Source: Alphaproteobacteria bacterium
GTDB lineage: Bacteria > Pseudomonadota > Alphaproteobacteria > Rs-D84
Direction: 5' to 3'
NCBI GenBank assembly: GCA_017528045.1
Contig: JAFXPG010000006.1
Span: 1-47,577 of the forward strand
Length of the DNA: 47,577 nt
In this document: positions 4,264 through 30,962 of the stretch, piece after piece
How positions within the stretch are numbered: position 1 is the stretch's first letter
Layout of the letters: each line of letters begins with the position of its first letter
Notes under the pieces: generated by a model
The model's database searches: none
What the model saw: the letters and a program-made list of their open reading frames with translations, nothing else
Told to the model about the DNA's origin: nothing
Made by a program: the position numbers and the translations under genes

Positions 4264-6771
4264 TTACATTGGAATATCTTGACAGCTTTCTTCTCGTTTT
4301 TCTTCACCACATTCCAATCTTCGTGTATCAACAAATAACACTGCTGCACCTTTCTGTTTGCATTCACGTGTTACTAATTCTGTACAGAAATGGCAATTAC
4401 GTGTTTCACGATTAAATGTTGCCCATTGAGATTTTGTTCCACCAGGTATGCTTGTGTTTACCTTTGAACCAGATAAACATGCAACACATACATTTGTAGA
4501 AGACATAGAAGCACCTTCAAACTTTGTAGTTCCTTTTCCACCCTTAGTCAAATCGGCCAATGTTGCACCAGCAGCCACTTCATAACTAATAGCATAAGGA
4601 GGAGTCAAAGGTCTATCTGCATCAGACAAACCAATTGAACCTGTCCCTGTTGGTAACATTTGACACATATATTGTGCAACGTCAGCAGAAGAATCTTTTA
4701 AAGCTTTTGATAATTCATCTTGCCATTTTTTGTTATAATTATCTTGTGCTTTACGCAAAGCAGACATAGCGATAGCAACACGATATTGATTTAACAATTT
4801 TGGGAAACGTGCCTTTGTTGTATTATCGCGACCTGCATCCCTTCCATTAATTTGAGATAAATCACGACCTTTTATACAATATTGAACTTCTTGATCTGTC
4901 TCGATTAAAGATATTGCACGATTAATTGTTCCTGCAATATTATTCAATTCTTCTTCAATAGAACCAATAATCACTTCAGAATTAGGTACATCTTTATTTG
5001 CTTTTTTAACTTTTGCAATATAATCGGCAACACCTATTTCCCCTGGAGCTAAAACCCTGTCCCCATCTTTTACATTGCCTGCTGCATCACCAACTTTAAT
5101 TGATCCAAAAGATATCATACCTGTAACACGATATATATTTCCATCTTTTTGTGGTTTTATAGAGCTGGTTCCTATATATTCATCAGCAGCAAAATTATTA
5201 CAATCTGTTGTAGATCCACACAATTCCATCATTTTCTTTTCTGCTAAATTCTTACAATTATCCAAAGCCTTATTATCAATGTTCAAATATAAACCCATCA
5301 ACATAGAATCTAAATCTTCCATTTTAAAGTTTTTGTTTGTTTGTTTACATACAACTAATTTATCAATTGGACAAATATCATGTATGTATTCATAATCCAT
5401 ACCTATACAATTTTGGAAATTTTGACCACATCTATCATCGGAAGTAAAACATTCTTTAACTTCTTGTGTACAAGCATCTACTCGCATAGCGGCTAATTTA
5501 CTTACAACATATTCCCAAATTTGTGGTTCCATACGTTCACAAGGATCAATTTGAACTTTACAAAAAGAACGTGCCATATCAGGTCTTGCTAAACATGCAT
5601 CCATAGAAGCAACACCTTTTCCTTCTATATCATCCTTACATGCTTTTTGGATACAATCAGAAATATCCCCCAAACAAGATTGACGTTTTTTAGATTCTAT
5701 ATTAGATTCAGCCAATCTAATAGTCGGGGCTACTTCTCTTAAAAAATCATCCCAAACATTATCGCGAACAGCAACACAACTGTCTAAAACTCTTTCACAA
5801 ATAAAACGTTTTGATTCTAATATTTCCATAGTTGATGCAGTAATATCATAAGTTTTAACTGTTTTAACTTTTGTTCCTTTTGTACTTACAGCAACATTAT
5901 TTTGCATATTTTCACCAGCAACAGTAAACACACAATTTTCCCAATCTTTACCGCAAGCATCCGCACCCATCATACATTTTTTATATTCAACCATACATTC
6001 ACCACGGTTATATTTATTAGATTCAGCTAAACTTTCTTTCAAAGCATTTCTTACTTCTGAATTTGCGGAAGCTAATTCAGATTTTGCTTCTTGTTTTTTT
6101 ACTTCTACACTGTTTGCAAAACCTTTACAATCTGAAACAATTTGTCTTGAATACATTTTCACTAATAGTGGTAAATCTGTTTCACAAGAATCTTGAATTT
6201 GTTGTTTACATAATTTATTAGCAGAATCATATAAAGCAGCACCTTTCTGAGAGAAGATATCCATATCTTCATCCATTTCTGTTAAATCTTCATCATTTTC
6301 TTCATCATAAATTGAAGACCACATAGATTTTTTTAATTCATTTTTATCTTTAGTTGCTTTTGTTTGAACAACGTTACCATTTTTATCGTAAGATCTACTG
6401 CCATCAAAAACAATATCAGCATTAGCTCCGGCTTTTACTTTTTCAACTTCTTCCATTTTTATACGTTCAGCATCTGATAACATATTTTTGATTTTTTGAA
6501 CTTCTTCTTGCAAAGCTATTGAATCATCACTACAAGCACAAGATCCACCATCTTCATTATCCATTATACAAAATTGATCCATACAACTGTAATATTTATC
6601 ATAACATTCTTGATTATATAAACCAGAAGCTTCTGTTTTAGTTCTAACTTTTGTTCCACCTTGGATAGCAGATTGTTTTTTTGCTGTTTTAGCAGCAGCA
6701 AAAGAATCTGTTGCATTAAAAACTAATGCAACAGCAATCAAGCTATAAAATATTCTATAAAAATTTTTCAT
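4264..6771 (-). CDS. exported cysteine-rich protein A (family unknown)
   Basis: The product is 835 residues with about 38 cysteines counted by eye. The Sec signal peptide ends near DSFA, followed by a short basic linker with QGGTKV. The N-terminal pattern is C56, C63-M-D, C68, C78, C80 (C-x6-C-M-D-x2-C-x9-C-x-C). An acidic stretch lies near 155-172. Further blocks shared with E, F and G are NKYNRGEC (252-259), ERVLDSC, SKLAAMRVDAC, SDDRCG and QYCIKGR followed by ARFPKLL. A C-terminal CHFC lies at 793-796, and the end is CQDIPM. The cysteine density and export signal suggest a disulfide-bonded periplasmic or surface protein. The gene lies 24 bases after B and has a strong AGGGGAGAG ribosome site, so it is probably cotranscribed. 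Function not recognised; no enzyme motif seen. Confidence 0.9.
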   Translation of the reverse strand: MKNFYRIFYSLIAVALVFNATDSFAAAKTAKKQSAIQGGTKVRTKTEASGLYNQECYDKYYSCMDQFCIMDNEDGGSCACSDDSIALQEEVQKIKNMLSDAERIKMEEVEKVKAGANADIVFDGSRSYDKNGNVVQTKATKDKNELKKSMWSSIYDEENDEDLTEMDEDMDIFSQKGAALYDSANKLCKQQIQDSCETDLPLLVKMYSRQIVSDCKGFANSVEVKKQEAKSELASANSEVRNALKESLAESNKYNRGECMVEYKKCMMGADACGKDWENCVFTVAGENMQNNVAVSTKGTKVKTVKTYDITASTMEILESKRFICERVLDSCVAVRDNVWDDFLREVAPTIRLAESNIESKKRQSCLGDISDCIQKACKDDIEGKGVASMDACLARPDMARSFCKVQIDPCERMEPQIWEYVVSKLAAMRVDACTQEVKECFTSDDRCGQNFQNCIGMDYEYIHDICPIDKLVVCKQTNKNFKMEDLDSMLMGLYLNIDNKALDNCKNLAEKKMMELCGSTTDCNNFAADEYIGTSSIKPQKDGNIYRVTGMISFGSIKVGDAAGNVKDGDRVLAPGEIGVADYIAKVKKANKDVPNSEVIIGSIEEELNNIAGTINRAISLIETDQEVQYCIKGRDLSQINGRDAGRDNTTKARFPKLLNQYRVAIAMSALRKAQDNYNKKWQDELSKALKDSSADVAQYMCQMLPTGTGSIGLSDADRPLTPPYAISYEVAAGATLADLTKGGKGTTKFEGASMSSTNVCVACLSGSKVNTSIPGGTKSQWATFNRETRNCHFCTELVTRECKQKGAAVLFVDTRRLECGEEKREESCQDIPM

Positions 6772-6795
6772 GTATTCTCTCCCCTACAAGAAATA

Positions 6796-9021
6796 TTACA
6801 TATTTATATCTTCACAAGATTCTATTTCTTGGCAAAATTCTTTCTTACCACCGGATAAAGCACCCAACACACCAGCACCAACGGCACCAACGACACCACC
6901 AATAGCAGTACCCCAACCAGCACTTATCATTGTTCCAGCAGAAGCACCAGCAGACAAACCACCAGCAGCAGCTTTCAAAGCAGATGTAGCCTTTGATTCC
7001 CCACCTTCTTCACAAACTTGTTGCATACGACAAACATGACAATTACGTAAATCAGGTTGGAAAGAAGAACTTCTTATATACATATAGTTACTTTTAGATT
7101 TATCTGGTTTTTCAGGAGCATATGTTTTTAAACATAATTTTTCTGCTTCTTTTAAATCTTTTTTGCGTGACAATTCTGCAATTCTAGAATCTAATTCACG
7201 TAAATTACGGTTTTCAGCAGACATTTTTGCTAACAATTTTGCCGTATTAAACACACTTACACCCAAAGCATTTTTACCTTTTAACTTTTTATTAGAAACA
7301 CTTTGACTGTCTGAACATGCAGCCACAGTTTTATCGTTTTCAAATTGTGTAAAGAATTCTTCTACACTTGCATCAGAATCTTTAATAACTTTTTTACGCA
7401 AATCTGACAAGAAAGTATCCATTTCTTCATCATCTTCTGGTATGTTAGACAAAGATTCGACAGATGTTACTATCGGCAAACAGGCCATATCTGTTCCACA
7501 CACTTTACCCAACTGTTCACCAAAATAATTTACACAACCTTGCAACATTTGATAATCCATTTGCAAAATAGCTGATTGAACAATTATATCAAATTGAACT
7601 GCTGTTTTACATGAAGGGAACATATCTTGTGGACACAAAGCGGCAATCTCATAAGGTTTTTTTCCAACACATTCTGGTTTAGTAAAATCTATACCACATT
7701 TATCTTGTAAACATTTATCAACATCGTTTTCACAGAATTTAGTTTGTAAATACCCCAATTTGTCATTAACAACCGCTTGAAATCCAGGTATCATTTCATC
7801 ACATTCTGTAATAATAGGACAAATTCCAGCCGCAACATTCACATCAGATAAACATTCTGCATTTGTAGACGTTGAACAACTTTCTTCCAAACAATATTGT
7901 ACTTTTGCTAAACATGTTCCACGTTTGTTTTTGTCAGCATACTTTGCAGCTTCTTCTAAAACACTTTTTGATTCTTCTGCCCAATCTTGAACAACATAAT
8001 CACGAACAGCCATACATTGATCTAATATATTTTCACAAGCATTAGAACGACGTTGTAAAAGTGAAGCATCTAAACAATTTTCAAAATTTGCACCACAACC
8101 ACCTTTATCTGCAATGCAAGAACGATAAGCTAACAAACATTCACCACGATTATATTTATTTGTTGTATCTAACATTTCCAAACGCGCCTTACGAACTGCA
8201 GATTCAGCTATACGTTTATTTGATTCTGCATTTGTCTTTTGGTCTGACAAATATGCATCATAACTTTTACAATCTTGAACAATCATTCTTGTATATAACA
8301 TTTCTTCCATTTCTGCTTTTTTACCACAAGAAGCTAATTCAGAAGCACAAAAATCTGCAGCCATACCATATAAAGAATCACCTATTTCTTCGTCTTCACC
8401 AACACCTTTTTCATCATCATCACCATTTAACCAAGCTGTAAAGCTTATTTTTTTACCAGTAGATTTATTTGTCTTATCAACAAAAACTAAACGAGCTTTT
8501 GCACCTAGCTGTTCACGTTCAACACCTTCTGTAAATAATTTATCCGCTTCTTCTTGAATAGCCAAAACTTCTTTAATTTTATTTTTTGCACGATTTATAT
8601 TGTCTGAACAAGCACAACGTTCACCCTGACTTTCATCTAACAAACAAAAATTATCCATACATTCACGATAAGCATCTCTACAATCTGACGACGATGCAGA
8701 AGTATCAGCCGTTTTATCAGACGATGCCGTTGTCGTTTCTGATACATTTGTATTGGTTACAGTTGCTGTATTTGTAGTACTGTTTGAAACAGGGGCAACA
8801 GAAACATTACTTTCATAAACATTTTGAACAGGCAAACCACCAACATTTTTATTAACATCATTTAATGTTCCAGGCATTCCATGAACAACCACTGTAGAAA
8901 TACGCGAAGCAGCTTGGGTATCACGGTTCATACCAACCCTTGCATTTGAATCCCCACGTGTTGCCCCGAAAGAAACAACTGGAAAAATCAGTAAAACTGG
9001 TAAAAATTTAAATATTTTCAT
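6796..9021 (-). CDS. exported cysteine-rich protein B (same family as A)
   Basis: The product is 741 residues. A signal peptide ending SFGA is followed by a Ser/Thr/Asn/Val-rich linker of about 90 residues, then the family pattern at C114, C121-M-D, C126, C136, C138. NKYNRGEC recurs at 288-295, followed by ENILDQC. Near the end, RNCHVC (C661, C664) precedes a glycine-rich hydrophobic segment at about 681-725 with repeated GxxxG spacing, and the tail is CQEIESCEDINM. The glycine-zipper-like segment could insert into or span a membrane, or pack in an oligomer; that is inference. Ribosome site AGGGAAGG; promoter at 9047-9075. It is the first gene of a probable B-A operon. Function not recognised. 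Confidence 0.9.
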   Translation of the reverse strand: MKIFKFLPVLLIFPVVSFGATRGDSNARVGMNRDTQAASRISTVVVHGMPGTLNDVNKNVGGLPVQNVYESNVSVAPVSNSTTNTATVTNTNVSETTTASSDKTADTSASSSDCRDAYRECMDNFCLLDESQGERCACSDNINRAKNKIKEVLAIQEEADKLFTEGVEREQLGAKARLVFVDKTNKSTGKKISFTAWLNGDDDEKGVGEDEEIGDSLYGMAADFCASELASCGKKAEMEEMLYTRMIVQDCKSYDAYLSDQKTNAESNKRIAESAVRKARLEMLDTTNKYNRGECLLAYRSCIADKGGCGANFENCLDASLLQRRSNACENILDQCMAVRDYVVQDWAEESKSVLEEAAKYADKNKRGTCLAKVQYCLEESCSTSTNAECLSDVNVAAGICPIITECDEMIPGFQAVVNDKLGYLQTKFCENDVDKCLQDKCGIDFTKPECVGKKPYEIAALCPQDMFPSCKTAVQFDIIVQSAILQMDYQMLQGCVNYFGEQLGKVCGTDMACLPIVTSVESLSNIPEDDEEMDTFLSDLRKKVIKDSDASVEEFFTQFENDKTVAACSDSQSVSNKKLKGKNALGVSVFNTAKLLAKMSAENRNLRELDSRIAELSRKKDLKEAEKLCLKTYAPEKPDKSKSNYMYIRSSSFQPDLRNCHVCRMQQVCEEGGESKATSALKAAAGGLSAGASAGTMISAGWGTAIGGVVGAVGAGVLGALSGGKKEFCQEIESCEDINM

Positions 9022-9046
9022 TTTGCCTTCCCTACATTTTTGTTTT

Positions 9047-9075
9047 ATTTTATCAAAAAAATCACTTCCTTACAA
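9047..9075 (-). promoter_or_regulatory. promoter of the B-A operon
   Basis: On the minus strand TTGTAA (9075-9070), 17 bases, then TAAAAT (9052-9047) with an upstream TG. The predicted start near 9040 leaves a leader of about 19 bases before the ATG at 9021. Confidence 0.6.
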
Positions 9076-9084
9076 GAAAATTTC

Positions 9085-9113
9085 TTGCATTTTTATGTTA
9101 TGATCAATATTAT
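9085..9113 (+). promoter_or_regulatory. promoter of infA
   Basis: TTGCAT (9085-9090), 17 bases, then TATTAT (9108-9113), upstream of infA at 9136. It is divergent from the B-A promoter, with only about 10 bases between the two -35 boxes. Confidence 0.55.
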
Positions 9114-9135
9114 AACAAAAAAATAGAGGTTATAG

Positions 9136-9387
9136 ATGGCAAAAGATGACGTTATTGTTTTTTCCGGTACCGTAGAAGAAAGATTACCAAATACTATGTT
9201 TCGTGTTCGTTTGGAAAACGGTCATATGATTTTGGCAACCGTATGTGGTAAAATGCGCAAAGCACGCATTTGGGTGAACGTTGGTGAAAAAGTTCATGTA
9301 GAAATGACACCTTATGATTTAGATAAAGGAAGAATTACTTTTGTTGAAAGAACACATGCAAGTACCGAACAAAATCAAAATCATTAA
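9136..9387 (+). CDS. infA: translation initiation factor IF-1
   Basis: IF-1 is an 83-residue S1/OB-fold protein that binds the 30S A site during initiation. The typical opening ([19 protein letters not shown]) and the core [20 protein letters not shown], then [19 protein letters not shown], match the family along its length. A short Gln/Asn/His-rich tail follows. The ribosome site TAGAGG lies seven bases before the ATG. The gene has its own promoter and terminator. It is away from the ribosomal operon, between two genes for exported cysteine-rich proteins, which is an odd setting but leaves it as an independent unit. Confidence 0.97.
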
Positions 9388-9388
9388 A

Positions 9389-9417
9389 AAGATCCACAAG
9401 AAATTGTGGATTTTTTT
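9389..9417 (+). terminator. Rho-independent terminator of infA
   Basis: GATCCACAA (9391-9399) pairs with TTGTGGATT (from 9404), followed by a T run. Confidence 0.88.
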
Positions 9418-9427
9418 ATTTTAATTC

Positions 9428-9457: not shown

Positions 9458-9473
9458 TATTAAAAAGTAAAGG

Positions 9474-11819
9474 ATGAGGAAGTTTCTTATAACTTTTTTA
9501 AGTGTGTTTTTATGTGTTAATTTTGTTAACGCAGCTACTGTTCGTTCACAAAATGCAGTTGTTCGTTCTGAAACAACAAACACATCTGTTCGGCAAAAAA
9601 ACACTACAAAAGCAAGATCTACCATATCAAGAATAAAAAACCAAAATACCAGAACAAACAACTCTATAAAAAGAGTTTCTGCCAGAACAGCAACTAATCA
9701 AAAAGTAATATCAGGTCGTATTGGAACAACACAAAAAGTTTTATCTGGGCGCAATATAAAAACACAAAACTCAAAAAAAGCACGAGCCACAGCAACAACA
9801 AAAACATTTGGAACCAGCTATAATGATTGTCGAGATGCTTATTTTTCTTGTATGGATCAATTTTGTGCTACACAAAATGAAACTTACCGCAGATGTGTTT
9901 GTTCTTCTAAATTAAAAAATATTCAAGAAAAAGAACAAAAGTTATCCAATACAGCAAACAGTCTAAAAGATTTCCAAGATTTTAATATTGATGCCATATC
10001 AAAAACAGCAGCAGAAGTTACAGCTATGAGTTCTGCATCAGAAGGTGAACAAGCCATAAAAAAAGACACTTCTGACAGTGCAAATACTTTAAGCAACATA
10101 TCAAGTGTTTTAAATACAACGAAACAAAAATCTTTATCCACACAAGGAACATTGGATATTGGCGGAAATATGAAATCTGTTTGGGGAACAACAGATTTAA
10201 TAGGTGGTTCAGATATAGCCAACATGACAGGAGAATCTTTATACAATGCGGTACATACCCAATGTGCAGAAATGGTTACAGAAAATTGTACATCTTCTAA
10301 TTTAACAATGGTGGCTTCTGCATATGGAATGTATATAGAAAACGATTGTACATTACTAGAAGCATCTATAAAATCAAAAACCACAGAAGCAAATGCTGCA
10401 ATAAGAACAACTCGACATAATATGCAAGATGCAAGGTACGATAATTATAACGCACATAATTCTTTATCTTTAAATGATTGTATTTCAAAAGTTCGTCAAG
10501 ATATCACTTCTAATACAGCATGTGGAACAAATTATATTCATTGCCTAGACGTAACAGGAAAATATTTAAATTCAACAACTGGTGAACCAATTTATTCTAA
10601 TGAATTTTTTCAAATATCTAACCAAATTTCTTTATCTGGTGATGTTTTAAACAATAATGCAAACAAATTGTTTATAGATGCTTTAGATAAGAAGCGTCCT
10701 TTTGCAAAAACAACTTTAGAATTATGTGAAGACAATTCAGATTATGTATGGAAAGAATTTTTACAACAAGCCTTGGTTGAAATATATCAAGGACAGTTAT
10801 CCAGAGTTCAATCTGTAAAAGCAGAATGTTTACAAGTTGTAAATGAATGTTACGATGAACAAACTGGTCAATTAAAAGAATTTAGTAATGATTCAGACAA
10901 AATATCTTTGGGTTTAACATTGGAAGTTGCTGAAGATATGTGTAAAGAAAAATTAACAGCTTGCAGTAATTTATATGGTGGAGGATCAGAAGGATTAAGT
11001 TTATTAGTGAATACTATGAGAGATATTACAGATAAAACAATTGGTCAATCATGTAAGGACTTATTGATAAAATATACAAAAGATATTTGTGCAGTTCCAA
11101 ACAGTGATTCTGAACATTCTTATCCATATGGATGCAGAACATTTGATCCAGGAGAATCTTTATATGCAAAAAATGGTACATGTAATTCTACATTGGTTAA
11201 CCCATTTATAAAAAACGATATTGTTATAAACACATCTTCATCAAATATAGATTTTTATTTAGGTTTTGTTGAAACAGATAAATATTACGGATGTTATACT
11301 CAAATAGAAGAAAACCAATTACAAAAAGCATATACCTCTTGTAATTCCGGATACTATATGTATTCAAACATAAGCAACGCTAAATTCAATTATTCTGGTG
11401 GAAACGATGCAGATGAATGCAGAATTTGTCCATCTGGTTATACTTGTTTAGGTGGAACATCTGCACCACAAGCACAAGATTCAACATTATATACACAATG
11501 TGGCACTAATTATATAGGCAGTTTATATCACAAAATGGTAAGATATGCGCTTCAAAATTGTTTGCGTTCATCAAGCGAAAGTACAGTATTACCAGAATAT
11601 ATATTATCTGATGTAAATATTGTTATGAATCAAGTTCAATATGATTTAGTAAAAGAATTATCATCAGAATGTGAAAAGCAGAAAGGTTTATGGGTAGATT
11701 TACCATGGCAAGATGAAAATGCAGATGGTATACATGATGCAAATGGTGATAAATTATCACAAGCTTTTTATGCTTATACCGGAACTAGTATTTTATGGGG
11801 ATATTGCAAAGCCCAATAA
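9474..11819 (+). CDS. exported cysteine-rich protein C (divergent family member)
   Basis: The product is 781 residues, on the opposite strand from its relatives. A signal peptide ends FVNA, then an Arg/Asn/Thr-rich linker with two copies of a QKV-SGR unit (about 73-93). The family N-terminal pattern follows at C119, C126-M-D, C131, C141, C143. The middle is less alike than in A, E, F and G, and has no NKY-x3-EC block. Near residue 650, CRICPSGYTCLGG resembles the cysteine repeats in the exported protein at 32993-34210, which links the two groups. The end, ILWGYCKAQ, lacks the CEDI-type tail. The leader is very short and AAAGG abuts the ATG, so initiation may be unusual. It shares a bidirectional terminator with clpX. 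Confidence 0.87.
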   Translation: MRKFLITFLSVFLCVNFVNAATVRSQNAVVRSETTNTSVRQKNTTKARSTISRIKNQNTRTNNSIKRVSARTATNQKVISGRIGTTQKVLSGRNIKTQNSKKARATATTKTFGTSYNDCRDAYFSCMDQFCATQNETYRRCVCSSKLKNIQEKEQKLSNTANSLKDFQDFNIDAISKTAAEVTAMSSASEGEQAIKKDTSDSANTLSNISSVLNTTKQKSLSTQGTLDIGGNMKSVWGTTDLIGGSDIANMTGESLYNAVHTQCAEMVTENCTSSNLTMVASAYGMYIENDCTLLEASIKSKTTEANAAIRTTRHNMQDARYDNYNAHNSLSLNDCISKVRQDITSNTACGTNYIHCLDVTGKYLNSTTGEPIYSNEFFQISNQISLSGDVLNNNANKLFIDALDKKRPFAKTTLELCEDNSDYVWKEFLQQALVEIYQGQLSRVQSVKAECLQVVNECYDEQTGQLKEFSNDSDKISLGLTLEVAEDMCKEKLTACSNLYGGGSEGLSLLVNTMRDITDKTIGQSCKDLLIKYTKDICAVPNSDSEHSYPYGCRTFDPGESLYAKNGTCNSTLVNPFIKNDIVINTSSSNIDFYLGFVETDKYYGCYTQIEENQLQKAYTSCNSGYYMYSNISNAKFNYSGGNDADECRICPSGYTCLGGTSAPQAQDSTLYTQCGTNYIGSLYHKMVRYALQNCLRSSSESTVLPEYILSDVNIVMNQVQYDLVKELSSECEKQKGLWVDLPWQDENADGIHDANGDKLSQAFYAYTGTSILWGYCKAQ

Positions 11820-19198: not shown

Positions 19199-21208
19199 TC
19201 ATTTTGCAGATTTCTTTTGGTCAAAGTTATAACACATTGCTTCCAAGCTGTTTGAATAAGTTGCATTTGAACCTGTGCCACTTGGAATTGCAGAATCTGG
19301 TAAATGTAAATTCCATTTGATATAGAAATCTTTCAAAGAATCTATGGTATAAGATTTACCCAAAGCAATAGAATTCAAACCATCACCAACTTTGCAAGTA
19401 ATATGACTGCGTTCTACGAATGCTGTAATCATTGTTGCCAAACCACCTGCCCCAGCACCAGCTGCAGCACCAATACCCAAACCTTTACCAATTTCTTTAC
19501 CTTTATTTGGTTCTGAACCTTTGTTTGGTAAGATTCTAGCCAATAAAGATTTCAAACTTTTTATTTCTGCTGCTATTTCATCTTTTGTTTTACATCTGCC
19601 ATCAAAATCACAGTAAGGTGTTTCTGATTCTATCATTAATCCCAATTGTAAAGGTTTGAAAGAACACACTTTCAATTTTTCTTTTACTGCATTATAAACA
19701 TCTTCATCACAACCAATAGCAGTAAGTTGAGCATTGGTAAGGTTCCCTTCTGATTTACACATTTCCTTGATAAGTTTTTGTTTAACATCTTGTGTTATAA
19801 GGTTATTTTCAATAGTAATTTTTATTTCATTATCACACTTTTCCATTGCATCTTCATACAATTTTATTTTTGAATTTAAATATACAATGGAACGACATCC
19901 TTCTTCATCCATATTTAATATGTCGTCATTTGTTGCAAATACAGGTGTTGATTTTGCTGTATCTACAACAACTTTATCACCTGATCTATCAAGGACAACA
20001 TTTGAATAAGCAAATGACCTTAATAAATCCTGGTCATTTTTATTGCCAATATTTGCCACCAATTTCTTTATGAATTCAGGATTATTACAAGCATCACCAT
20101 CATTAAGATCATCATATTCTGCTTTCTTTTTAGCATAAACCCCTGCCCCAGCAGCAGCATCAATAGAAGCCCCCAAAACAGTTCCACCACCAACACCAAT
20201 TACAGCAGCAGTTTTTGTATCATTCAACAAAGAAAATCCGAACAAATCTTTACTGCATGTAAAAGAAGATCCTGCTTTTTGCCATACTTCTGCAACATTA
20301 TCGTTACCAACAGCACCAAACAACCAACTGTTTGTAATATTCTTATCTTTGTTATAAGCCCCAACACGGATTAAACATTCTGCTTTTGTTGCATCCCAAC
20401 GTGCATAATGACCACGATTACCATCGTATCCTGTGGTATTAAGAACAACACCTTGTGGATTATCTTTGCTTAATGTACCACCATTTGCTGAATTATAAGC
20501 ACCGATACCTTTATTATATTCTGCGTTAACATCGTTTTGGTCAGACACGGCGGCAAATGCAGCACCGTATGTATTTTTATCTAATAACAAACAAGTATTT
20601 TCAGCCTGATTTGGTGTCAAACCTGTTTTACGTAAAACGAAATTATAATATTCTGGTTGAACAACACGACAGTTAAAATCCATCCAAACATCTGTATTGG
20701 AAGCATAAACAGATTTACAATCTTCACGAACATCTTTAATACATTTATCTACAACATCTTGGCATAATCTCATACCAGACATAATAGAATTACGAACTTC
20801 TTCGTTATACATATCATTTAAACCAGAAGGCAAAGCCCCAGAATTAATACAATTCAAAAGATCGTTACGACACATTGATGCCGTATATTCAGAATTTTTT
20901 ACCCCACCATCTTCACATTCTTTCACTGGTTCTGGTTCTGGGGTTGGAGTTGGGGTTGGTGTAGGAACGATATGTTGTGTTTGAACAACTTGTACTGGCA
21001 CATCAGTAGTTGTAACAGCAGGATTATTAATAACAGATAAACCCGTGACATTTTGTACAGGCATACGTGCAGAAGCATTAACCATTGTCACACTTGGCAT
21101 CATACTGCGATTACCATTACGACCATTATCAGCAGCATAACAAGCACCAAAAGCCGCCAACACAGCAACACTGACCACAGATTTTCCAAACACATTTATT
21201 ATTTTCAT
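19199..21208 (-). CDS. exported cysteine-rich protein D (distant relative or analogue)
   Basis: The product is 669 residues with about 21 cysteines. A signal peptide ends near CYAA, followed by a Met/Val/Asn-rich linker that shares the MPVQNV-type motif with protein B (LPVQNV), then a Pro-Thr/Pro-Glu repeat (about 86-96). It lacks the C-x6-C-M-D pattern; the first cysteines are CEDGG, MCRNDLLNC and LCQDVVDKC. Two glycine-rich hydrophobic segments occur: GVGGGTVLGASIDAAAGAG, and GIGAAAGAGAGGLATMITAF near the C-terminus, resembling those of B and E. Ribosome site GGGGGAAAG; an extended -10 lies at 21238-21246. The layout suggests the same class of envelope proteins, but common ancestry is unproven. 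Function not recognised. Confidence 0.85.
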   Translation of the reverse strand: MKIINVFGKSVVSVAVLAAFGACYAADNGRNGNRSMMPSVTMVNASARMPVQNVTGLSVINNPAVTTTDVPVQVVQTQHIVPTPTPTPTPEPEPVKECEDGGVKNSEYTASMCRNDLLNCINSGALPSGLNDMYNEEVRNSIMSGMRLCQDVVDKCIKDVREDCKSVYASNTDVWMDFNCRVVQPEYYNFVLRKTGLTPNQAENTCLLLDKNTYGAAFAAVSDQNDVNAEYNKGIGAYNSANGGTLSKDNPQGVVLNTTGYDGNRGHYARWDATKAECLIRVGAYNKDKNITNSWLFGAVGNDNVAEVWQKAGSSFTCSKDLFGFSLLNDTKTAAVIGVGGGTVLGASIDAAAGAGVYAKKKAEYDDLNDGDACNNPEFIKKLVANIGNKNDQDLLRSFAYSNVVLDRSGDKVVVDTAKSTPVFATNDDILNMDEEGCRSIVYLNSKIKLYEDAMEKCDNEIKITIENNLITQDVKQKLIKEMCKSEGNLTNAQLTAIGCDEDVYNAVKEKLKVCSFKPLQLGLMIESETPYCDFDGRCKTKDEIAAEIKSLKSLLARILPNKGSEPNKGKEIGKGLGIGAAAGAGAGGLATMITAFVERSHITCKVGDGLNSIALGKSYTIDSLKDFYIKWNLHLPDSAIPSGTGSNATYSNSLEAMCYNFDQKKSAK

Positions 21209-22307: not shown

Positions 22308-22334
22308 AAAAACACCCAAATGGGTGTTTTTTTA
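22306..22334. terminator. bidirectional terminator
   Basis: AAACACCC pairs with GGGTGTTT around AAAT, with A and T runs on both sides, between the convergent gene at 21345 and protein E. Confidence 0.87.
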
Positions 22335-25328
22335 GAACTGTGTTTCGGTACAACGTTCATCTACAAAATCTTCTGTCTCCCATTTTTTGCAATTTCTATC
22401 AGAAAATATATGCCATGCAGTTTTTTTACATTTCATATGCGAAATACATTTTTTACATTTCATAGTTTCTTCATCAAAATCTGTGGTGATTTTTTCACGA
22501 TAATTCCATTCATTTGCAAAATATTCGCCATGATTATTAACTTTCTGGTTTTCTTGACCTATCATCATATTGGCATTTTCTTGTTTTATATAAGATTCTT
22601 CAGATAACGCAACACCTGTGGCAATCATAGCACCAGCAGTAGCAACGCCAATACCAGCACCAACAGCAGCACCAACAGCAGCTGTCGCTGCGGCAGCAGA
22701 TGCAGCAGCAGCAGATGCTGCTATTGCAGCGCTTGTTGCAGCAGCAGATGCACCAATAGTAGCCGCTGTTGCAGCACCCATACCAGCTGTTAAAGCTGCC
22801 GAAGTAGCTAAAGACCCTGAGATAGCAGCCAAACTGGCTGTAGCACTAGCGGTAGCTGCTGCTGCACCCGCTGCCGCACCACTAGCTAAAACAGCACCAT
22901 TTGCCGCCATAAAACTTCCGATAACCCCTCCAGCTACGCCAGCCGCAGCTCCACAAGTGAATACAGTAGCTACAACTATTGCCGCAACAACAATTATACC
23001 TATCAAAATCTTTGCCCACAACGATTGACCAACCGGTGCTTTGGCAAATGCTGATAAAGCCGCCATATTAACACATGCTTCACGAGCAACCGTAATTTCA
23101 ACATCATGTTGATTTGCATCTGCAATCTTTGCCAAACGTTCGGATATTTTTACCAAATCTTGTTGCATACGATCAGTCAATTCATCATATTTTGCATAAT
23201 AATTATTACGTGCTTGATTTAGTGCAGTCGTTGCCATTTGTCTGCGAATTGTGTTTGCCATTTTTGGAAAACGAACTTTGTTTTTACCAAATTTATCTGT
23301 GACACCTTCGATTTCACGTCCATTTATACAGAATTGAACCCATTGATCTTGTTCAACCGAAGTTATCACACGATTAATATCACCTTGTAATTGTTCCAAA
23401 GTTGAACGAACACGATTTTTTTCTTCGTCTGATATTTTTTCTTTTGTTAATTCATCCATATATTTATCTATATCAACATACCCTTCATCATTGATTTCAA
23501 CAAATTCCCATTTGATAACACCGGTTATAACACCTGCAAATGGTTTTACTGGGCCCATTTCACCATCTTGTGATCCATGAACACGTCCCAATTCTGCATC
23601 GGAAATATGATCAATATCGGCACGACAATCAAACCATTTGAAACCTTCGGTTGAATCTGGGGAATCAGTTGTATATTGACAAACACTGTAATTCAAAGCA
23701 TCCGCACCAACATGTGGTGCAACAGCAAAACTTTGACATGTTTCACCAGCGCAAACTTCATCCATTGCCCTGTCTACTGCGTTTTCGCATGTCTGCAACA
23801 TTTCATTATCAATATTTAAAATTACGCCTTCGATAATTTGTGCAACTTCATCATAAATTGCTTCACCTTTGACAGCTTCAGCCCCATATACTTTTTCACA
23901 ACCTGTTAATTTATCATACGGACACATACGCATAATTATATTTGTATCCAAACCAATACATTTTGAATAATCGGAACCACATCTGTCATCACTTTGCATA
24001 CAAGTTTTAATTTCTTCTGTACAAGAATCAACACGCATAGCTGATAATTTCGCCAACACAGATGGCCAAAGGGTTGACGCTTCTGGATTATCATAAGAAC
24101 CACCGGTAGCAGCCAAACAAGGTTCCATTTCAACTTTGCAAAAACTTTTCATAGATTCTGGTCTTGTTAAACACATATCATAAGAATCATTTCCATCTAT
24201 GTTTTCTTTACAGGCTTTTACAAAACAATTTGATATATTATCTAAACAAGATGTTCTGACGTTTGATTCTGCTGTTAATTCAGCTAATTTAATATCAGCC
24301 ACACTGTTTCTTAAAAACATATCCCAAACTTGATCTTTAACGCTTACACAACTGTCTAAAACCCTTTCGCAAATATATTTTTTAGAATCTAAAACATCCA
24401 TAGTTGATTGAGCAATCATTATCGAAGCGTTTGGACCCGATACAGCAACAGTTGCTGTTTCACCAGAATATATTTTATCTTTTGCAACAGTTCCAACACA
24501 ACCTGTAAAATCTTTGCCACATTCAGCATCTTTTTGCATACAAGATGTAAATTCAATTACACATTGACCCAAATCATATTTATTTGTTTCATTATATTGT
24601 TCCAAAGCTGCTGCACGTACAGATTTTTTTACTTCCGCACGTCTGTCTTGACTGGCATGTTGTTGTTCAACCAAAGCGTTTTCAAAAGCCGCACAATCTG
24701 ATTTTATTTTTTGTGTGTACATATTTGAAATTAAATTAACTTGCGCTTTGCATTCTGGAATTCTTTCCATACATAACTTATGCATTTCTGAACGCAATTT
24801 ATCACCCACAGAATCATATGTCACAGAATCAGAATCTAAATCATCCACATCATCATCTGCATCAGAAAAATCAGATTGAATTATATCAGAACCATATTTT
24901 TGTTCATCTAATACACTTTCAGTGGCTTCCAACATACGTTGGCTTTGAATATCTTTCTTTTTGATTTTATCTAATTTTGCATTTAATTCTGTGATTTTAT
25001 TACTGCATTGGCAACGACCACCAGAATCGTTATCTATAATACAACCAGCATCCATACAAGCTTCGTATTTTTCTTGGCATGAAGAAGATTTTGCTGTCGA
25101 TTCTTGTACTTTGGTTCCTATATTAATTACTTTTTGATTAGTAGCCGCACGCTTTTTAGTATCATTTTTCGCAGTATTATTCTTGGTATTTTTTGTATTA
25201 TTTGTTTTTGTATTTTTTTGTGCGACCGTTGTATTGCTGCGTGCACTTGGACGCGTTGCAGAATACACCGGCCCTGCAATAACAGTTAACGCAAAAATAA
25301 CAGCAAAAAATCTTATAAACTTTTTCAT
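22332..25328 (-). CDS. exported cysteine-rich protein E with long Ala/Gly segment
   Basis: The largest of the family, at 998 residues. The signal peptide ends VYSA, followed by an Asn/Thr/Lys-rich linker and RAATNQKVINIGTKV. The family pattern is at C84, C91-M-D, C96, C106, C108. Shared blocks NKYDLGQC, ERVLDSC, AKLSAMRVDSC, SDDRCG and QFCINGR with VRFPKMA occur in the same order as in A, F and G. Unique to E is a segment of about 138 residues (769-906) that begins with a true transmembrane-like stretch (IIVVAAIVVATVFT) and continues as Ala/Gly/Ser/Thr low complexity. The tail has CKKC, further Cys and ends CTETQF. The segment may anchor or span a membrane; that is inference. The ATG is only three bases from the stop of F, so F-E is one operon. 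Confidence 0.9.
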   Translation of the reverse strand: MKKFIRFFAVIFALTVIAGPVYSATRPSARSNTTVAQKNTKTNNTKNTKNNTAKNDTKKRAATNQKVINIGTKVQESTAKSSSCQEKYEACMDAGCIIDNDSGGRCQCSNKITELNAKLDKIKKKDIQSQRMLEATESVLDEQKYGSDIIQSDFSDADDDVDDLDSDSVTYDSVGDKLRSEMHKLCMERIPECKAQVNLISNMYTQKIKSDCAAFENALVEQQHASQDRRAEVKKSVRAAALEQYNETNKYDLGQCVIEFTSCMQKDAECGKDFTGCVGTVAKDKIYSGETATVAVSGPNASIMIAQSTMDVLDSKKYICERVLDSCVSVKDQVWDMFLRNSVADIKLAELTAESNVRTSCLDNISNCFVKACKENIDGNDSYDMCLTRPESMKSFCKVEMEPCLAATGGSYDNPEASTLWPSVLAKLSAMRVDSCTEEIKTCMQSDDRCGSDYSKCIGLDTNIIMRMCPYDKLTGCEKVYGAEAVKGEAIYDEVAQIIEGVILNIDNEMLQTCENAVDRAMDEVCAGETCQSFAVAPHVGADALNYSVCQYTTDSPDSTEGFKWFDCRADIDHISDAELGRVHGSQDGEMGPVKPFAGVITGVIKWEFVEINDEGYVDIDKYMDELTKEKISDEEKNRVRSTLEQLQGDINRVITSVEQDQWVQFCINGREIEGVTDKFGKNKVRFPKMANTIRRQMATTALNQARNNYYAKYDELTDRMQQDLVKISERLAKIADANQHDVEITVAREACVNMAALSAFAKAPVGQSLWAKILIGIIVVAAIVVATVFTCGAAAGVAGGVIGSFMAANGAVLASGAAAGAAAATASATASLAAISGSLATSAALTAGMGAATAATIGASAAATSAAIAASAAAASAAAATAAVGAAVGAGIGVATAGAMIATGVALSEESYIKQENANMMIGQENQKVNNHGEYFANEWNYREKITTDFDEETMKCKKCISHMKCKKTAWHIFSDRNCKKWETEDFVDERCTETQF

Positions 25329-25331: not shown

Positions 25332-28019
25332 TTAATATTGAATATCTTCACAAGTTTCTTGTTCATCGCCCCATTTTTTACAATAACTTGTTCTTGTTTT
25401 TTCACATTGTTGTGTTCTTACACATTTATGACAAGATAAAGCTTCCATATTAAATGTTGTAATAACACTGCGTTTGAAATTATATGTAGATGCAGCACTT
25501 TGTCCGGTTAATTTATCACTGCTGGATGTAGTGTTAACTTTTTGATTCGCCCTGCTGCCCATGGCACCACCCATAGAAGCATCTTCACCCAAAGCAATAC
25601 ATGCTTTTCTGGCCCAATCTTGTTTGTTGGCTTTATCATTTTTACCTTCAATTTCAGAAATACGTTCAGATATTTTTATTTCATCTTCTAAACGTTTTTG
25701 ATGTAATTCATCAAATTTATTATAATAATTTTGTTTAGCTAATCTTAAAGCAGAATCAACAATTATATTACGATAAGATTGTGTTATATTTGGAAATCTG
25801 GCGTTATCTTCTTTACCTATCATTTGTGTAAATCCAGAATCATCAGACAAACCTTCTACTTGACGTCCGGTCATACAATATTGAACTTTTGGATCGGATT
25901 CTATTGCAGAAATTGCATTCTTAATAGACGATGACAAAGCAGATATTTCTGTTTTAACTTTTTGTTTAAATTCATCATCCAAAGGATTAGACTTTTTAAT
26001 ACCTTCATAATATTCTTCAAATTCTGTAATACCAGAAGCATCTTCTTTTGCAGCTATATTTTCCCACAACAATTCACCAAAGATTACACCATAAAAGTCT
26101 TTTCTTTCGTGTTTTGTTTGTTTCATATTGACATCACGTGTTGTTTTACCCAATTCAATATCTGTAATCATACCTTCGTTTTGTTTACAATTTACATATG
26201 CATCTCTATCCAAATCATCTTTACCAATTTCACAGAATTTCAATTCTAAACTTCTGCTGCCAACACCTTTATCTACGGCCAAATTATCACAATTTTCTGT
26301 ATCACCACAAACTTTGACCATTGCTTCTTCTACTGCTTTTTGACAAGCAGTTAACAAAGAATTATCAACATTTATCAAAATACCATTTGCAATTTTTTCT
26401 AATGTTTCACGAACAGTTTCACGTTGGTTATTATATTCACTGTAACAAGCGGTCAATTTATCTTCTGGACATAAACCGGCAATATCATCATTATCAAACC
26501 CAATACATTGTGAATAATCTTCACCACATCTGTCATCACTTTGTAAACATTGTTTAAATTCTGTTGTACATGCATCAACACGCATAGAAGATAATTTAGA
26601 TAAAATTCCATTCCATAAACTGGATGTATCTGGTTCTTCATAAGTTCCACCGGTTGCATTTAAACATGGTTCCAATTGAACTTTACAGAAAGATTTATAA
26701 TTGTCTGGACGTGATAAACACATATCATAAGAACCATCAGGATCTTTTGGATCCATATGTTCTTTACATGCTTTTAAATGACAATCTGAAATATCAGCCA
26801 AACAATTTGTTCTTAAATTTGATTCCGCTGCTAATTCAGCATTTTTAACATCAAAAGCAATATCACCCAATACAACATCCCAAACCTGATCTTGAACAGC
26901 AACACAATTATTCAAAACAGTTTCACACATAGGTTTTTTAACCAACAAAACATCCATAGTTGCAGCAGCAATCGAAACAAAACCAATTTTAACTTGTGAT
27001 AATTTATTACCTTTCATATTTTCAGATGCAGCCAAACTTACACAACCCGTGAAATCTTCGCCACAACCAGCCGTTGTTTTCAAACAATTTTTAAATTCAA
27101 TAGCACATTGAGCCAAATCATATTTATTAGAATCTTTGAAATCTTCCAAAGCAGCAGTTCTGACCGTAGCTTTGGCTTCTTCCAACTTTGCATTACTTTC
27201 AGATTTTTGTTGTTTAATAGAATTTTCAAATGCCGCACAATCACCTTTGATTTTTTGTGTGTACAACATTTTTGTAAAATCTTCTTTGGCTTTACATTTA
27301 TCTGGAACCTGACTCCAACACATATCCATAGAATATTTATATAATTCATCACCTGTTTTATCAGAAATATCTGTTCCACCTAATGAAAAAACTTCCTCTT
27401 CTTCTTCATCGTCTTCAGCAGTGGCAAATTGTTTATTCCAATCATCTAAACTGACAGATTTTTTTGTATTATCTGCAACCGGTGTTCCATCTAACGATTC
27501 GTCAGCAGCATCTTTTTTTGCTTTTTCAAAAGCTTTTTCAGAAGCAGCCAACACATCACCAGCGGCTTTGCCGTATTCAATATGATCTGTTCCATATGTA
27601 GCAATCGCATACGCTTCTTCATTCACAGCCATAATTTCATTTAATTGAACCATCAAATCATGATGTTTGTTACTGCATTGACAACGACCACCGGAAACAT
27701 TATCAACAATACAGAAAGCATCCATACAGCCAAAATAAGATTCTTGACATTCTTCATCTACTAAATTGCTTGTCTGTGCGGCAGAAATTTTAGTTCCTGT
27801 ATTAACAACTTTCTGGGTAGAAGCAGCACGTGCAGCATTTGTTTTTTTAGAAGACGTATTTTTATTTGTATTTTTATTATTATTTGTTTTGTTGTTTGTT
27901 TTGTTAGATGTTGTTGTTTTTGTGTTCGAAGAACCTGCTTTTTTCTTAACAGGTGCGGCATCTGCGTTAACACACATAACAGACAACATTGCCAAAACAG
28001 ACACAAAAAATTTGAACAT
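25332..28019 (-). CDS. exported cysteine-rich protein F (same family)
   Basis: The product is 895 residues. The signal peptide ends NADA, followed by a long Asn/Lys/Thr linker (about 25-62) and RAASTQKVVNTGTKI. The family pattern is at C91, C98-M-D, C103, C113, C115. An acidic run (EDDEEEEE) lies near residue 205. NKYDLAQC, ETVLNNC, SKLSSMRVDAC, SDDRCG and QYCMTGR with ARFPNIT follow the A/E/G order. Near the end are CHKC, then CEKTRTSYC and the tail CEDIQY. Ribosome site CGGAGAGA and an extended -10 at 28050-28058. It is first in the F-E operon and, with G, one of three consecutive paralogues. Function not recognised. Confidence 0.9.
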   Translation of the reverse strand: MFKFFVSVLAMLSVMCVNADAAPVKKKAGSSNTKTTTSNKTNNKTNNNKNTNKNTSSKKTNAARAASTQKVVNTGTKISAAQTSNLVDEECQESYFGCMDAFCIVDNVSGGRCQCSNKHHDLMVQLNEIMAVNEEAYAIATYGTDHIEYGKAAGDVLAASEKAFEKAKKDAADESLDGTPVADNTKKSVSLDDWNKQFATAEDDEEEEEVFSLGGTDISDKTGDELYKYSMDMCWSQVPDKCKAKEDFTKMLYTQKIKGDCAAFENSIKQQKSESNAKLEEAKATVRTAALEDFKDSNKYDLAQCAIEFKNCLKTTAGCGEDFTGCVSLAASENMKGNKLSQVKIGFVSIAAATMDVLLVKKPMCETVLNNCVAVQDQVWDVVLGDIAFDVKNAELAAESNLRTNCLADISDCHLKACKEHMDPKDPDGSYDMCLSRPDNYKSFCKVQLEPCLNATGGTYEEPDTSSLWNGILSKLSSMRVDACTTEFKQCLQSDDRCGEDYSQCIGFDNDDIAGLCPEDKLTACYSEYNNQRETVRETLEKIANGILINVDNSLLTACQKAVEEAMVKVCGDTENCDNLAVDKGVGSRSLELKFCEIGKDDLDRDAYVNCKQNEGMITDIELGKTTRDVNMKQTKHERKDFYGVIFGELLWENIAAKEDASGITEFEEYYEGIKKSNPLDDEFKQKVKTEISALSSSIKNAISAIESDPKVQYCMTGRQVEGLSDDSGFTQMIGKEDNARFPNITQSYRNIIVDSALRLAKQNYYNKFDELHQKRLEDEIKISERISEIEGKNDKANKQDWARKACIALGEDASMGGAMGSRANQKVNTTSSSDKLTGQSAASTYNFKRSVITTFNMEALSCHKCVRTQQCEKTRTSYCKKWGDEQETCEDIQY

Positions 28020-28049
28020 AAAAAATCTCTCCGTATATATACTTAAATT

Positions 28050-28058
28050 ATTATATCA
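28050..28058 (-). promoter_or_regulatory. extended -10 promoter element TGATATAAT upstream of F-E
   Basis: The minus strand reads TG-A-TATAAT about 31 bases before the ATG at 28019, with a predicted start near 28043. No clear -35. Confidence 0.6.
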
Positions 28059-28109
28059 CATTTTTAATATACAAAAAAACGAAAATTTGAAAAATAAATA
28101 AAAATTTTA

Positions 28110-28141
28110 AATAAAAAACACCGCCCAAACGGGCGGCATTT
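28110..28141 (-). terminator. Rho-independent terminator after protein G
   Basis: CCGCCC (28121-28126) pairs with GGGCGG (28131-28136) around AAAC; on the minus strand it is followed by a T run. It separates G from the F-E operon. Confidence 0.87.
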
Positions 28142-30962
28142 TTATCTATGTTCCAAAGCATATTGATGTTGTGCTTCTAATTTAATTTTATCTGATTCAC
28201 TAACACTAGCACCACTTTTAAAACCGCCTGTCAAAGCATCTTCTCGATTATATTTATGCAATTGCAACTGAGTAGTTACGCTGCCAGCTTTTTCCCATTG
28301 ACGTCTGCAACGTGGCGATATGTAATATGGACAACGCCATTGTATTGTTTCCAGATTACAAATATTTGTTTGTGTATCATACTTTGGTTCTACACTTGTT
28401 GCAAATTTAGCATACCTTCCGAAATCACCAGTGACCGCACGTGCAGAACAAGAAGCACTGTTAACTTCATCTTGTGCAGCTTCGCCTGCGCCATCAATTC
28501 GTGCCAAACGATCATTAATTGTTTTTTGAGCTTTGTCAAATTTTTCATCCAAAGAACCCAAAGCTTTCGAATACGAAGTTCTCATATCATCAAACAAAGA
28601 AGAAATCATAATATCTTTTTTATTATCCAATAAATTTGGAAAACGTGCAACATCGGCTCCTTCTTTACCAAATTTTTCTCCATCAAACCCTTGGACTTTA
28701 CGTCCTTCCATACAATAAACAACTGTTGGATCAGATTTTATAGCATTAAATTTAGAATCTAACGACGTATTCAACTGATTAACTACAGTGTCTAACCAAT
28801 TAGTACTTTTGTAATAACGGTTATCACCATCAGATGATAAAGTTTCGTTGTCAGTTAATTTAGATTCAAATTTATGTTCATTATCGCTAAAATTTATTCC
28901 AGATAAATCAAACATTCCTGTTACCGTCGGAATAACATGACCTTCTAAAACATATTGTGCATTAAATCCATCTGCTGTGTTTGAACAAATATAATTTTCA
29001 TTTATATCTGTAGTATTTTCTTTTCCAAACATGCATACTTGAACATTTAAATTATCTTTAAATATTTGATCATTAAATGTCAAAGATGGACATTCTTCAG
29101 CACTGCCACATACTTTGATCATAGCATTATCAGCAGCCTTTTGACATATTGTTAACATATTATTATCAATATTCAAAGCAATACCTTGTGCAACTTCTGC
29201 AATATATTTACGTATATCATCTGGTGTTTGATCTTTACCATTTTTTTCTTTACAAGCTGTTAATTTATCGGTTGGGCACAATTCACCAATTGAATTAGTA
29301 TCCAAACCAACGCATTTTGAATAATCTTTACCGCAAACATCATCAGACATCAAACAATTTTTAATTTCTGATGTACAAGCATCAACACGCATAGCAGATA
29401 ATCTCGCTGTGATACCAGCCCACAATCTAGAATTCTTAATAGATTTTTCATCACCCAATGTTCCACCTGTTGCATTGATACATGGTTCCAATTTAACTTT
29501 ACATAAATCAACTACCAACATAGGATCAGATAAACACATATCATAAGAACCATCTGGATTCTTTGGATCCATATATTCTTTACATGCTTTTTGGAAACAT
29601 TCAGAAACATCACTGATACAGTTGCTTCTTAAATTATCTTCTGCGATTAATTCAGCAGATTTCAAAGTTGGTGCAATATTTGCCAAGAAAGTATCCCAAA
29701 CTTTATCTTGAACTTTCTTACATTGTTTCAAAACACTTTCACACAAAGGTTTTTTAGCTGTGATTTGATCAATAGTAGCAGCAGCCAAAGTTATACTTGA
29801 TACCGCACCCTTAATTGTTGTTTGTTTTGCTTGTTTATTTTTTTGTTTATCACCTTTTGCTTGTGCAGAAACTTTTACATTTTCAGCTGCGGCCAAAGTT
29901 ACACATCCTGTAAAGTCTTCTTGGCAGCCCGCTGTTGTTTGCATACATTCTGTGAAACGCAATGTACATTGACCCAAATCATATTTATTTTCATTTTGGA
30001 ATTCTTCTAATGCTGTATCACGTAAAGCTTTTTGAGCTGTTTGTAATTTTTGTGTACTTGCATTTTTTTGTTGTTTCAAAGAATTTTCGTATGCTGTACA
30101 ATCTGATTTAATTTTTTGAGCATACATCATTTGTAACATAGAAGCTGATTGTTTACATTGTGCTGGAACCATAGGTGCACACATTTGTATAGATACTTTA
30201 TACAAAGCATCACCTGTTTTATCTTGCAGAGCTTGTGTAGCATCAGTATCAATTTCAAAAGGATTTTCTTCATCTTCATCAAATAAAGCATTATTGTTGA
30301 ATATAGATAAATCTAATGTTCTGGATTTTTTAGCGCTTTCTTCTGCTGCTATTTTTTTATTTGCCGCAGCATCACCAGCAGCTTTTGCTCTGGCCAAAAT
30401 TTCATCGGCGTTTTCACCCATTTTCAAACGTTCTACGCCTTCTGTTGCCATGATATAAGATTGTTCATCTAATTTTAAAATTTCTTCTTGGATTTTATTG
30501 TAATCATTGATTTTATCACTGCACATACAACGACCACCACTGGCATTATCAACCATACACAAAGAATCCATACAACCAAAGAAAGCATCCTTACATTCTT
30601 CACTTACAGTTGTATTTTCTGTCTTGGCAGAAACTTTTGTTCCCGCTTGAACAACTTTTTGTGTTGCAGCAGCTCTGGCACCATTAGGTTTACCAGCAGA
30701 TGGTTTTGCAGAATTACCAGCCGTTGCTTTTACACCAACACCACTTGTTTTACCAGCACCAGTAGATTTACCGGCAACACCAGCATTCTTTTGTCCAGAC
30801 ATCTTAGCAGCACGAGCACCATTAGCCCTGCCCGCTGTTTTATTGCCAGGTCGCAGCAGCAGTATTTCCACCACGTACACCACGTGCAGGCGCAGCAGAA
30901 AAAGCGCTGGAATCTAAGATTAAACCTGCTATAACAATAGGTAAAACAAACAGTTTACGCAT
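28142..30962 (-). pseudogene. exported cysteine-rich protein G, 5' frameshift
   Basis: The body (about 913 codons) carries the family features: a Gly/Ala/Lys linker, RAAATQKVVQAGTKV, the C-x6-C-M-D-x2-C-x9-C-x-C pattern, NKYDLGQC, ESVLKQC, ARLSAMRVDAC, SDDVCG and VYCMEGR with ARFPNLL. Its open frame has no signal peptide. The signal peptide (MRKLFVLPIVIAGLILDSSA, then FSA) starts at the ATG at 30962, after a strong AAGGAGA site and promoter, in another frame that ends at a TAA at 30842-30840. Skipping one base, or restoring two, near the GCT repeat at 30851-30862 joins them into about 939 residues. It could be a decaying gene, phase variation, programmed frameshifting or a sequence error. The C-terminus also differs, with no CxxC/CEDI tail. 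Confidence 0.8.

Follow-up and report, generated by a model that had tools for sequence, protein, structure and literature searches.

Exported cysteine-rich proteins with a six-cysteine repeat in the alphaproteobacterial order Rs-D84

What are the long cysteine-rich proteins that occupy more than a third of a contig from an uncultured gut alphaproteobacterium, and what might they do for its cell? The analysed stretch of DNA (the window, 47,577 nucleotides) is contig C12 of assembly G000, which comprises 891,511 bases in 16 contigs and is 92.6% complete. For protein A, the first of these proteins, orthologs were found in 21 loci with identities of 52-71%. The best named relative is Candidatus Enterousia merdequi (71%), while the other 20 loci belong mostly to MAGs from ruminants, horse and other sources, which carry the labels Alphaproteobacteria, proteobacterium or, in one case, Rickettsiales. 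In NCBI, Enterousia is listed under Alphaproteobacteria incertae sedis; according to PMC8035907, it is the name for the GTDB genus Rs-D84, with family and order bearing the name Rs-D84 as well. On the basis of these matches, the genome of the window probably belongs to this group.

Assemblies of the order searched here have sizes of 0.5-1.1 Mb. Its members are uncultured gut organisms. They are described as genome-reduced, without flagella, many biosynthetic pathways and standard uptake transporters, and are predicted to be obligate symbionts or parasites, probably dependent on a partner. They carry rod-shape and peptidoglycan genes, and hypothetical membrane proteins or intercellular connections have been suggested for uptake (all PMC12306168). 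The cysteine-rich proteins considered here are not described in that paper.

The core shared by six of the seven proteins

The sequence-only reading of the window had described seven genes for giant exported proteins. Seven open reading frames, A to G, are indeed present at these places, and with a sum of 17.5 kb they make up 37% of the window:

4264..6771, minus strand: protein A, 835 aa, 38 Cys; adjoins B; one ortholog per genome in the three genus genomes compared
6796..9021, minus strand: protein B, 741 aa, 36 Cys; Gly-rich hydrophobic segment close to the C-terminus
9136..9387, plus strand: infA-like gene between B and C, a syntenic marker
9474..11819, plus strand: protein C, 781 aa, 30 Cys
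19199..21208, minus strand: protein D, 669 aa, 21 Cys, exported-looking
22332..25328, minus strand: protein E, 998 aa, 39 Cys; long Ala/Gly-rich hydrophobic insert; E/F/G cluster
25332..28019, minus strand: protein F, 895 aa, 39 Cys; E/F/G cluster
28142..30883, minus strand: body of protein G, 913 aa from an internal GTG; E/F/G cluster
30840..30962, minus strand: apparent start and signal peptide of G; ATG at 30962, 40 codons followed by a stop; frame differs from that of the body
31090..31647, minus strand: rplQ-like gene directly upstream of G

The gene between B and C is presumably infA and the one upstream of G presumably rplQ.

The motif C-x6-CMD-x2-C-x9-C-x-C, which had been noticed behind the signal peptide and linker, is present in A, B, C, E, F and G (six of the seven, D excepted). 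Five further motifs and RFP occur in the same order in A, E, F and G, and B also contains NKY-N-x2-E-C as well as the CEDI tail. Among open reading frames of at least 100 aa that do not belong to the local member list, 2 of 1,858 showed the CMD motif; both represent one paralog of the same genome on contig C8 that is absent from the list. In shuffled copies the motif did not occur at all (0/14,000). The list itself is incomplete and lacks at least the 763-aa protein of locus L075 and the 1,004-aa protein of locus L130, the core of the latter being included in the tree described below. An alignment of the six proteins showed 40 invariant columns, of which 22 are cysteine. In the core alignment A5, whose 22 rows represent six of the order's families, 12 columns were invariant and nine of these are cysteine; the Asp of the CMD motif is nearly invariant in the core, and A5 contains no invariant His. 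The cysteine content of A to G amounts to 3.1-4.9%, compared to 0.74% over 11 other window proteins, which were picked by hand with the cysteine-rich protein at 32993 left out. Judged from their sequences, these six proteins have an exported, cysteine-rich core in common. Of the seven-member family that had been proposed, the six are supported as members, and D, in which none of the family motifs was found, is a doubtful one.

Searches of four sequences, D and three orthologs, gave E-values of 0.16-3.9 with profile A2; with profile A5, D reached 6.5e-4 and the three orthologs 0.023, 4 and 4. The repeat HMM described below gave an E-value of 0.57 for D. Among 32 related loci, orthologs of D were observed in 8, which correspond to six genes, as two of these are split between neighbouring stretches; the loci include those beside the E/F/G cluster in relatives. 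D is a conserved, exported-looking, cysteine-rich neighbour. For G, the signal peptide and the body occupy different frames, and its C-terminus is without the module found in A, B, E and F. Due to this frame break and the missing C-terminal module, G may be a damaged gene or result from an assembly error.

The six-cysteine repeat and the layout of the proteins

A tandem unit can be read in the homolog of family f6 (L124). Its consensus is C-x6-C-x(4-6)-CG-x5-C ... C-x(4-5)-x-C ... VW, and it occurs in one to three copies. In protein A, the following parts can be distinguished:

6607..6771, minus strand: signal peptide and Cys-free linker, residues 1-55; conserved G-T-x-[VI]-R, from the sequence and an alignment of 21 orthologs
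6532..6606, minus strand: N-terminal CMD motif, residues 56-80; C-x6-CMD-x2-C-x9-C-x-C
5746..6000, minus strand: six-Cys repeat unit, residues 258-342; interrupted by an insert
5512..5676, minus strand: six-Cys repeat unit, residues 366-420
5332..5475, minus strand: six-Cys repeat unit, residues 433-480
4267..4416, minus strand: C-terminal Cys module, residues 786-835; predicted mainly as beta strands; ends in C-x4-M

An HMM built only from the three units of one f6 protein matched 151 of 166 other members at a domain E-value of at most 0.01, these members being mutually related and not independent, while among 166 shuffled sequences there was no match and among 166 reversed ones a single match. 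With an iterated repeat HMM, for whose training a selection of sequences including the window proteins was used, three units each were found in A, E, F and G, some of them split by inserts, and two in B. In the same way three units were determined for f6 and one each for f2 and f4, and the controls gave 0 and 3 matches. A, B, C, E, F and G match this HMM at 6e-12 or better, having been part of its training; the independent test of the repeat is the HMM seeded from f6. In the 315-aa protein of L077, no six-Cys repeat was found. Within A, hhalign of unit 2 with unit 4 resulted in an E-value of 4.7e-6, and the pairs 2-3 (0.17) and 3-4 (0.0077) were not significant. Since the comparison of the N-terminal part of A with each of the units was not significant either (0.085-0.26), the guess that the CMD motif might be a degenerate first repeat unit takes its basis from the spacing.

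Among the 110 members for which the linker could be measured, it carries a net positive charge in 86 and is free of cysteine in 102. At the other end, A, B, E and F finish in the C-terminal Cys/beta module, and tails specific to single paralogs extend beyond the core, e.g. in L074-L076. Of 149 members whose 3' end is closed, 97 showed the ending C-x4-[MFY]. It was compared with the C-terminal beta-signal of outer-membrane beta-barrels or Bam substrates, which finishes in an aromatic residue; 84 of the 97 finish in Met instead. As the ending is absent in the remaining 52 and some B orthologs run past it, it is not claimed to be a C-terminal sorting signal.

The structure of full-length A was modelled with AlphaFold from an alignment of 33 rows (pLDDT 70, pTM 0.42) and showed long helices and the C-terminal beta module. 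The model of residues 250-530 (pLDDT 73, pTM 0.47) was essentially all helical, both models being of moderate confidence. At an E-value of at most 0.001, Foldseek returned no match for either of these moderate models in the PDB and none for the full model in BFVD. The best BFVD match of the full model (0.05) was rejected, as were PDB matches of the C-terminal meander to levivirus-coat-like folds, which were weak (best E-value 0.68), and fold matches of the rod, which were regarded as helical noise (best PDB E-value 1.8).

The description of the family as unrecognised held in the databases searched, none of which gave a convincing match. A to G showed no match at cut-off in Pfam or NCBIfam and none at 1e-3 in PHROGs and PADLOC, and the search of PDB sequences returned nothing under an E-value of 0.1; what these searches did give was regarded as sub-threshold noise. 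In the open-access literature, searched partly with loosely aimed queries, no paper on the family was found.

Distribution, paralogs and gene neighbourhood

The family reaches well beyond the window. In the genome to which the window belongs, profile A2 gave matches on contigs C12, C14, C11, C8, C4 and C6, and 13 core-bearing proteins were identified, namely A, B, C, E, F and G and seven elsewhere (one each in L072, L073, L074, L076 and L077 and two in L075). Together with one repeat-only relative of 1,249 aa (L078), they comprise 11,832 codons, summed from ORF lengths with the first start codons, which corresponds to ca. 4% of the assembly. A reduced genome spends about this share on an unnamed family for which no relative was found outside the order. 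At L075:5073-13501 on contig C8, three long exported-looking cysteine-rich proteins of 763, 851 and 891 aa follow one another; the CMD motif is present in the first and the third and absent from the second, and Pfam gave no match over cut-off for any of the three.

The lineage-specific expansion that had been proposed is borne out by HMM searches for the family core in genomes of the order, the class and the phylum, whose matches were confined to the order. Profile A2 matched 53 of 59 genomes, comprising all 35 of the genus, 18 of the order and none of 6 other class members. At 1e-4, profile A5 gave a match in 190 of the 191 genomes searched from the order, some of which had supplied rows of A5; the single miss, G040 of family f2, had been matched by A2 at 5.4e-4. 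In the class sample 5 of 385 and in the phylum sample 2 of 398 genomes were matched, in both cases including the window's own, and all of these lie within the order. Judged by these profiles, the family is order-restricted in the genomes sampled, up to the phylum level. The numbers per genome obtained with A5 are approximate counts of matched stretches. Among the matches listed, genomes of family f1 showed about 8-16 stretches (4, 4 and 7 in three incomplete assemblies), those of f2, f4 and f6 about 0-3, and the single genomes of f3 and f5 about 7 each; for most genomes that do not belong to the family of the window, the number lies between one and three. A mobile-element origin was considered as well, and neither the phage search with protein A nor the plasmid search with residues 250-530 of A gave a match.

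The core tree comprised 58 rows from the genome of the window, three relatives of the genus (G003, G029 and G021) and families f2-f6; its bootstrap was not fully settled and long branches were flagged. Supported clades containing all four genomes were obtained for each of the types A, B, C, L073, L074 and L076, and these six common groups are nearly all single-copy, with two near-identical copies of the L076 type in G029. For the L072 and L075 types, each genome contributes one row, and their placement is unresolved. E, F and G form one clade (98/96) with three copies in the genome of the window, two in G003, two in G029 and one in G021. The expansion can therefore be described more precisely as six paralog groups common to four genus genomes and an E/F/G group of varying copy number.

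In all 21 related loci B adjoins A and points in the same direction, A being split into two ORFs in L063. C is present in 14 of the 21, some contigs ending early, and diverges from B-A in 13 of these 14; the infA-like gene is present in 18. On the other side of A, the window encodes an exported-looking protein at 2739-3722 (minus strand) that adjoins A, shows a weak PagL-like match below cut-off (0.004) and has counterparts in 3 of 32 related loci, all three from close relatives. The E/F/G cluster is located within ca. 1.4 kb of an rplQ-like gene in the window, L083, L086, L089 and L080, with the two on opposite strands in L080, and the cluster of f5 (L129) follows rplQ with an integrase-like gene between them; all these genes were named by eye.

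In two genomes of f4, G045 (L122) and G037 (L123), the family gene and a second linker protein immediately precede rseP-bamA-ompH, beyond which lpxD and fabZ are located, and the family gene is itself preceded by genes for HPF and rubrerythrin; Pfam domains of this neighbourhood were checked for L122 (G045). In G039 of f6 (L124), the family gene lies 1.4 kb downstream of a Pfam-checked bamA. The bamA linkage was observed in three contexts only, and in the genome of the window no family match was found on contig C5, which carries bamA. By eye, HPF and rubrerythrin were also recognised near one of the two copies in G047, and HPF near the f2 gene of G035. The conserved partner protein of f4 directly follows the family gene (L122:10518-11855, L123:2886-4139, L127:10451-11440) and has a low-complexity linker and 6-9 Cys; among the fetched loci it had one further weak match, in L106 (2e-8), probably via the linker.

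A possible role in the cell envelope

The proposed export is supported by the N-terminal hydrophobic segment that a hydropathy rule detected in 114 of 118 closed members. No lipobox was seen by eye in the window members. An internal TM-like segment was found in 33 of 114 members and none in the other 81. Contig C11 encodes a DsbA-like protein whose DSBA domain lies over the Pfam cut-off, and for DsbB and VKOR no match was obtained in the genome, which is 92.6% complete. The cysteine count is even in 95 of 114 members, after thinning in 20 of 27 and with looser thinning in 24 of 35 and 41 of 57. Control exported-looking proteins showed even counts in 34 of 52 cases, or in 31 of 49 without three relatives contained in the set (the 763-aa L075, the 1,004-aa L130 and the repeat-only L078 proteins). 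Since this bias is similar, cysteine parity is weak evidence for disulfides and was rejected as proof of them. The control also contains two long exported-looking proteins with 36 and 42 Cys outside the local member list (L082:3643-6735 and L087:1512-4364), which suggests that exported proteins of the order are broadly cysteine-rich. From the conserved cysteines, the DsbA-like protein and the bamA linkage in a few relatives, we infer that the proteins are disulfide-rich and located in the envelope, although DsbB and VKOR were not found.

As the best explanation, with a probability of roughly 45%, we propose that the proteins form a scaffold or stalk of the envelope that is oxidised, stapled by the repeat and involved in contact. 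The family, the repeat, the distribution and the synteny are shown by the sequence data, and disulfides, location, assembly and function are inferred. A to C, E to G and the seven further core-bearing proteins would be exported via Sec into the cell envelope. Behind the signal peptide, a low-complexity, mostly Cys-free and usually basic linker would be followed by a rod of long helices stapled by the six-Cys repeat. DsbA-type oxidation in the periplasm would lock the rods. At the outer membrane, these might join to form stalks or a cross-linked scaffold, which could strengthen the envelope and hold the cell to a partner cell or the gut surface. A, B and C would represent the conserved core and E/F/G the copy-variable part. 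Homology, repeat, export, linker, DsbA-like gene, bamA linkage, retention and the lifestyle of Rs-D84 were counted for this explanation. Counted against it were the missing DsbB and VKOR, the weak parity, the moderate models, the bamA without a family neighbour in the same genome, the non-significant unit pairs of A and the absence of the C-terminal motif in 52 of 149 members. A wider version appears doubtful, according to which a new disulfide-stapled helical repeat would be the order-defining envelope layer or stalk system and the main partner interface, grown from a single bamA-adjacent gene linked to outer-membrane biogenesis by repeat and gene duplication while the genome shrank. If an envelope or contact structure is true, the proteins would be an expressible target for finding the partner of genome-reduced alphaproteobacteria and a handle on how these attach and feed.

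The proteins could also act as surface adhesins or in partner recognition, with the linker and the Cys rod facing outward and binding glycans or proteins of protists, gut bacteria or the mucosa. The basic linker resembles the adhesive basic N-terminus reported for OmcB in PMC2229832, and the partner-dependent lifestyle (PMC12306168), the E/F/G copy numbers of 3, 2, 2 and 1 in four genomes and the paralog-specific tails after the core point in the same direction. However, six near-single-copy paralog groups common to these genomes are unlike a rapid-turnover repertoire, and known adhesin domains were not found over the Pfam cut-off. This role is possible and still rather unlikely. The strict B-A arrangement (21/21 loci) could alternatively reflect a complex of A and B serving as a conduit for export, uptake or cell-to-cell exchange; B, E and the f4 homologs would insert into a membrane through their hydrophobic segments. 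This would suit the reported lack of standard uptake transporters and the suggested hypothetical membrane proteins or intercellular connections (PMC12306168) as well as the TM-like segments in 33 of 114 members, but the majority (81/114) are without such a segment and no similarity to pore or secretion proteins was found. A conduit is improbable.

Less probable still is a role of the conserved cysteines in metal binding or redox chemistry instead of structural disulfides. The proteins are exported-looking, a DsbA-like gene is present and the core alignment contains no invariant His; in favour of such a role are the C-x-C and C-x2-C pairs, the nearly invariant Asp of CMD, the rubrerythrin gene near single-copy f4 genes and the lack of a recognised DsbB or VKOR. 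That the set merely collects unrelated low-complexity cysteine-rich ORFs, as the compositional bias of the linkers might suggest, is refuted for practical purposes by the ordered motifs, the absence of the CMD motif from 14,000 shuffled copies, the identities among A orthologs in 21 loci and the matches in 190 of 191 genomes.

For the preferred reading of a cross-linked scaffold, a comparison is offered by Chlamydia, whose envelope is disulfide cross-linked and whose OmcB has a basic, adhesive N-terminal region, as stated in PMC2229832 and PMC6752827. Like OmcA and OmcB, the proteins described here are exported-looking, cysteine-rich and encoded by host-associated bacteria, and they resemble OmcB in the layout of signal peptide, basic N-terminus and cysteine-rich part, the cross-linked envelope of Rs-D84 being only a proposal. 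Pfam holds models of the chlamydial cysteine-rich proteins. A to G differ in having no Pfam match over cut-off, in belonging to another phylum, in the number of ca. 13 genes in one genome and in the six-Cys helical repeat. Rs-D84 further differs by its rod-shape and peptidoglycan genes (PMC12306168). The best reading of this comparison is an analogy, in which the proteins may work like chlamydial OmcB, with no relatedness indicated by Pfam. DUF1311/LprI-like proteins are similar in being helical and exported, with Cys and a W/F motif; A to G differ from them by showing no Pfam match.

Exported cysteine-rich repeats are also known from the Ephrin_rec_like and TNFR families (PF07699 and PF00020), whereas A to G have no Pfam match to these and a core that is helical in the models; PF07699 was observed below threshold in the tail of paralog L076. 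A protein with Ephrin_rec_like repeats (PF07699 over cut-off) is encoded in the window at 32993-34210 (minus strand). It is exported-looking, comprises 405 aa with 35 Cys and had no match in 32 related loci searched. Its gene is located between genes resembling rpsK and rpoA. Since L080, L083 and L086 hold other genes in this gap, the ribosomal operon may have a hot spot for insertions here.
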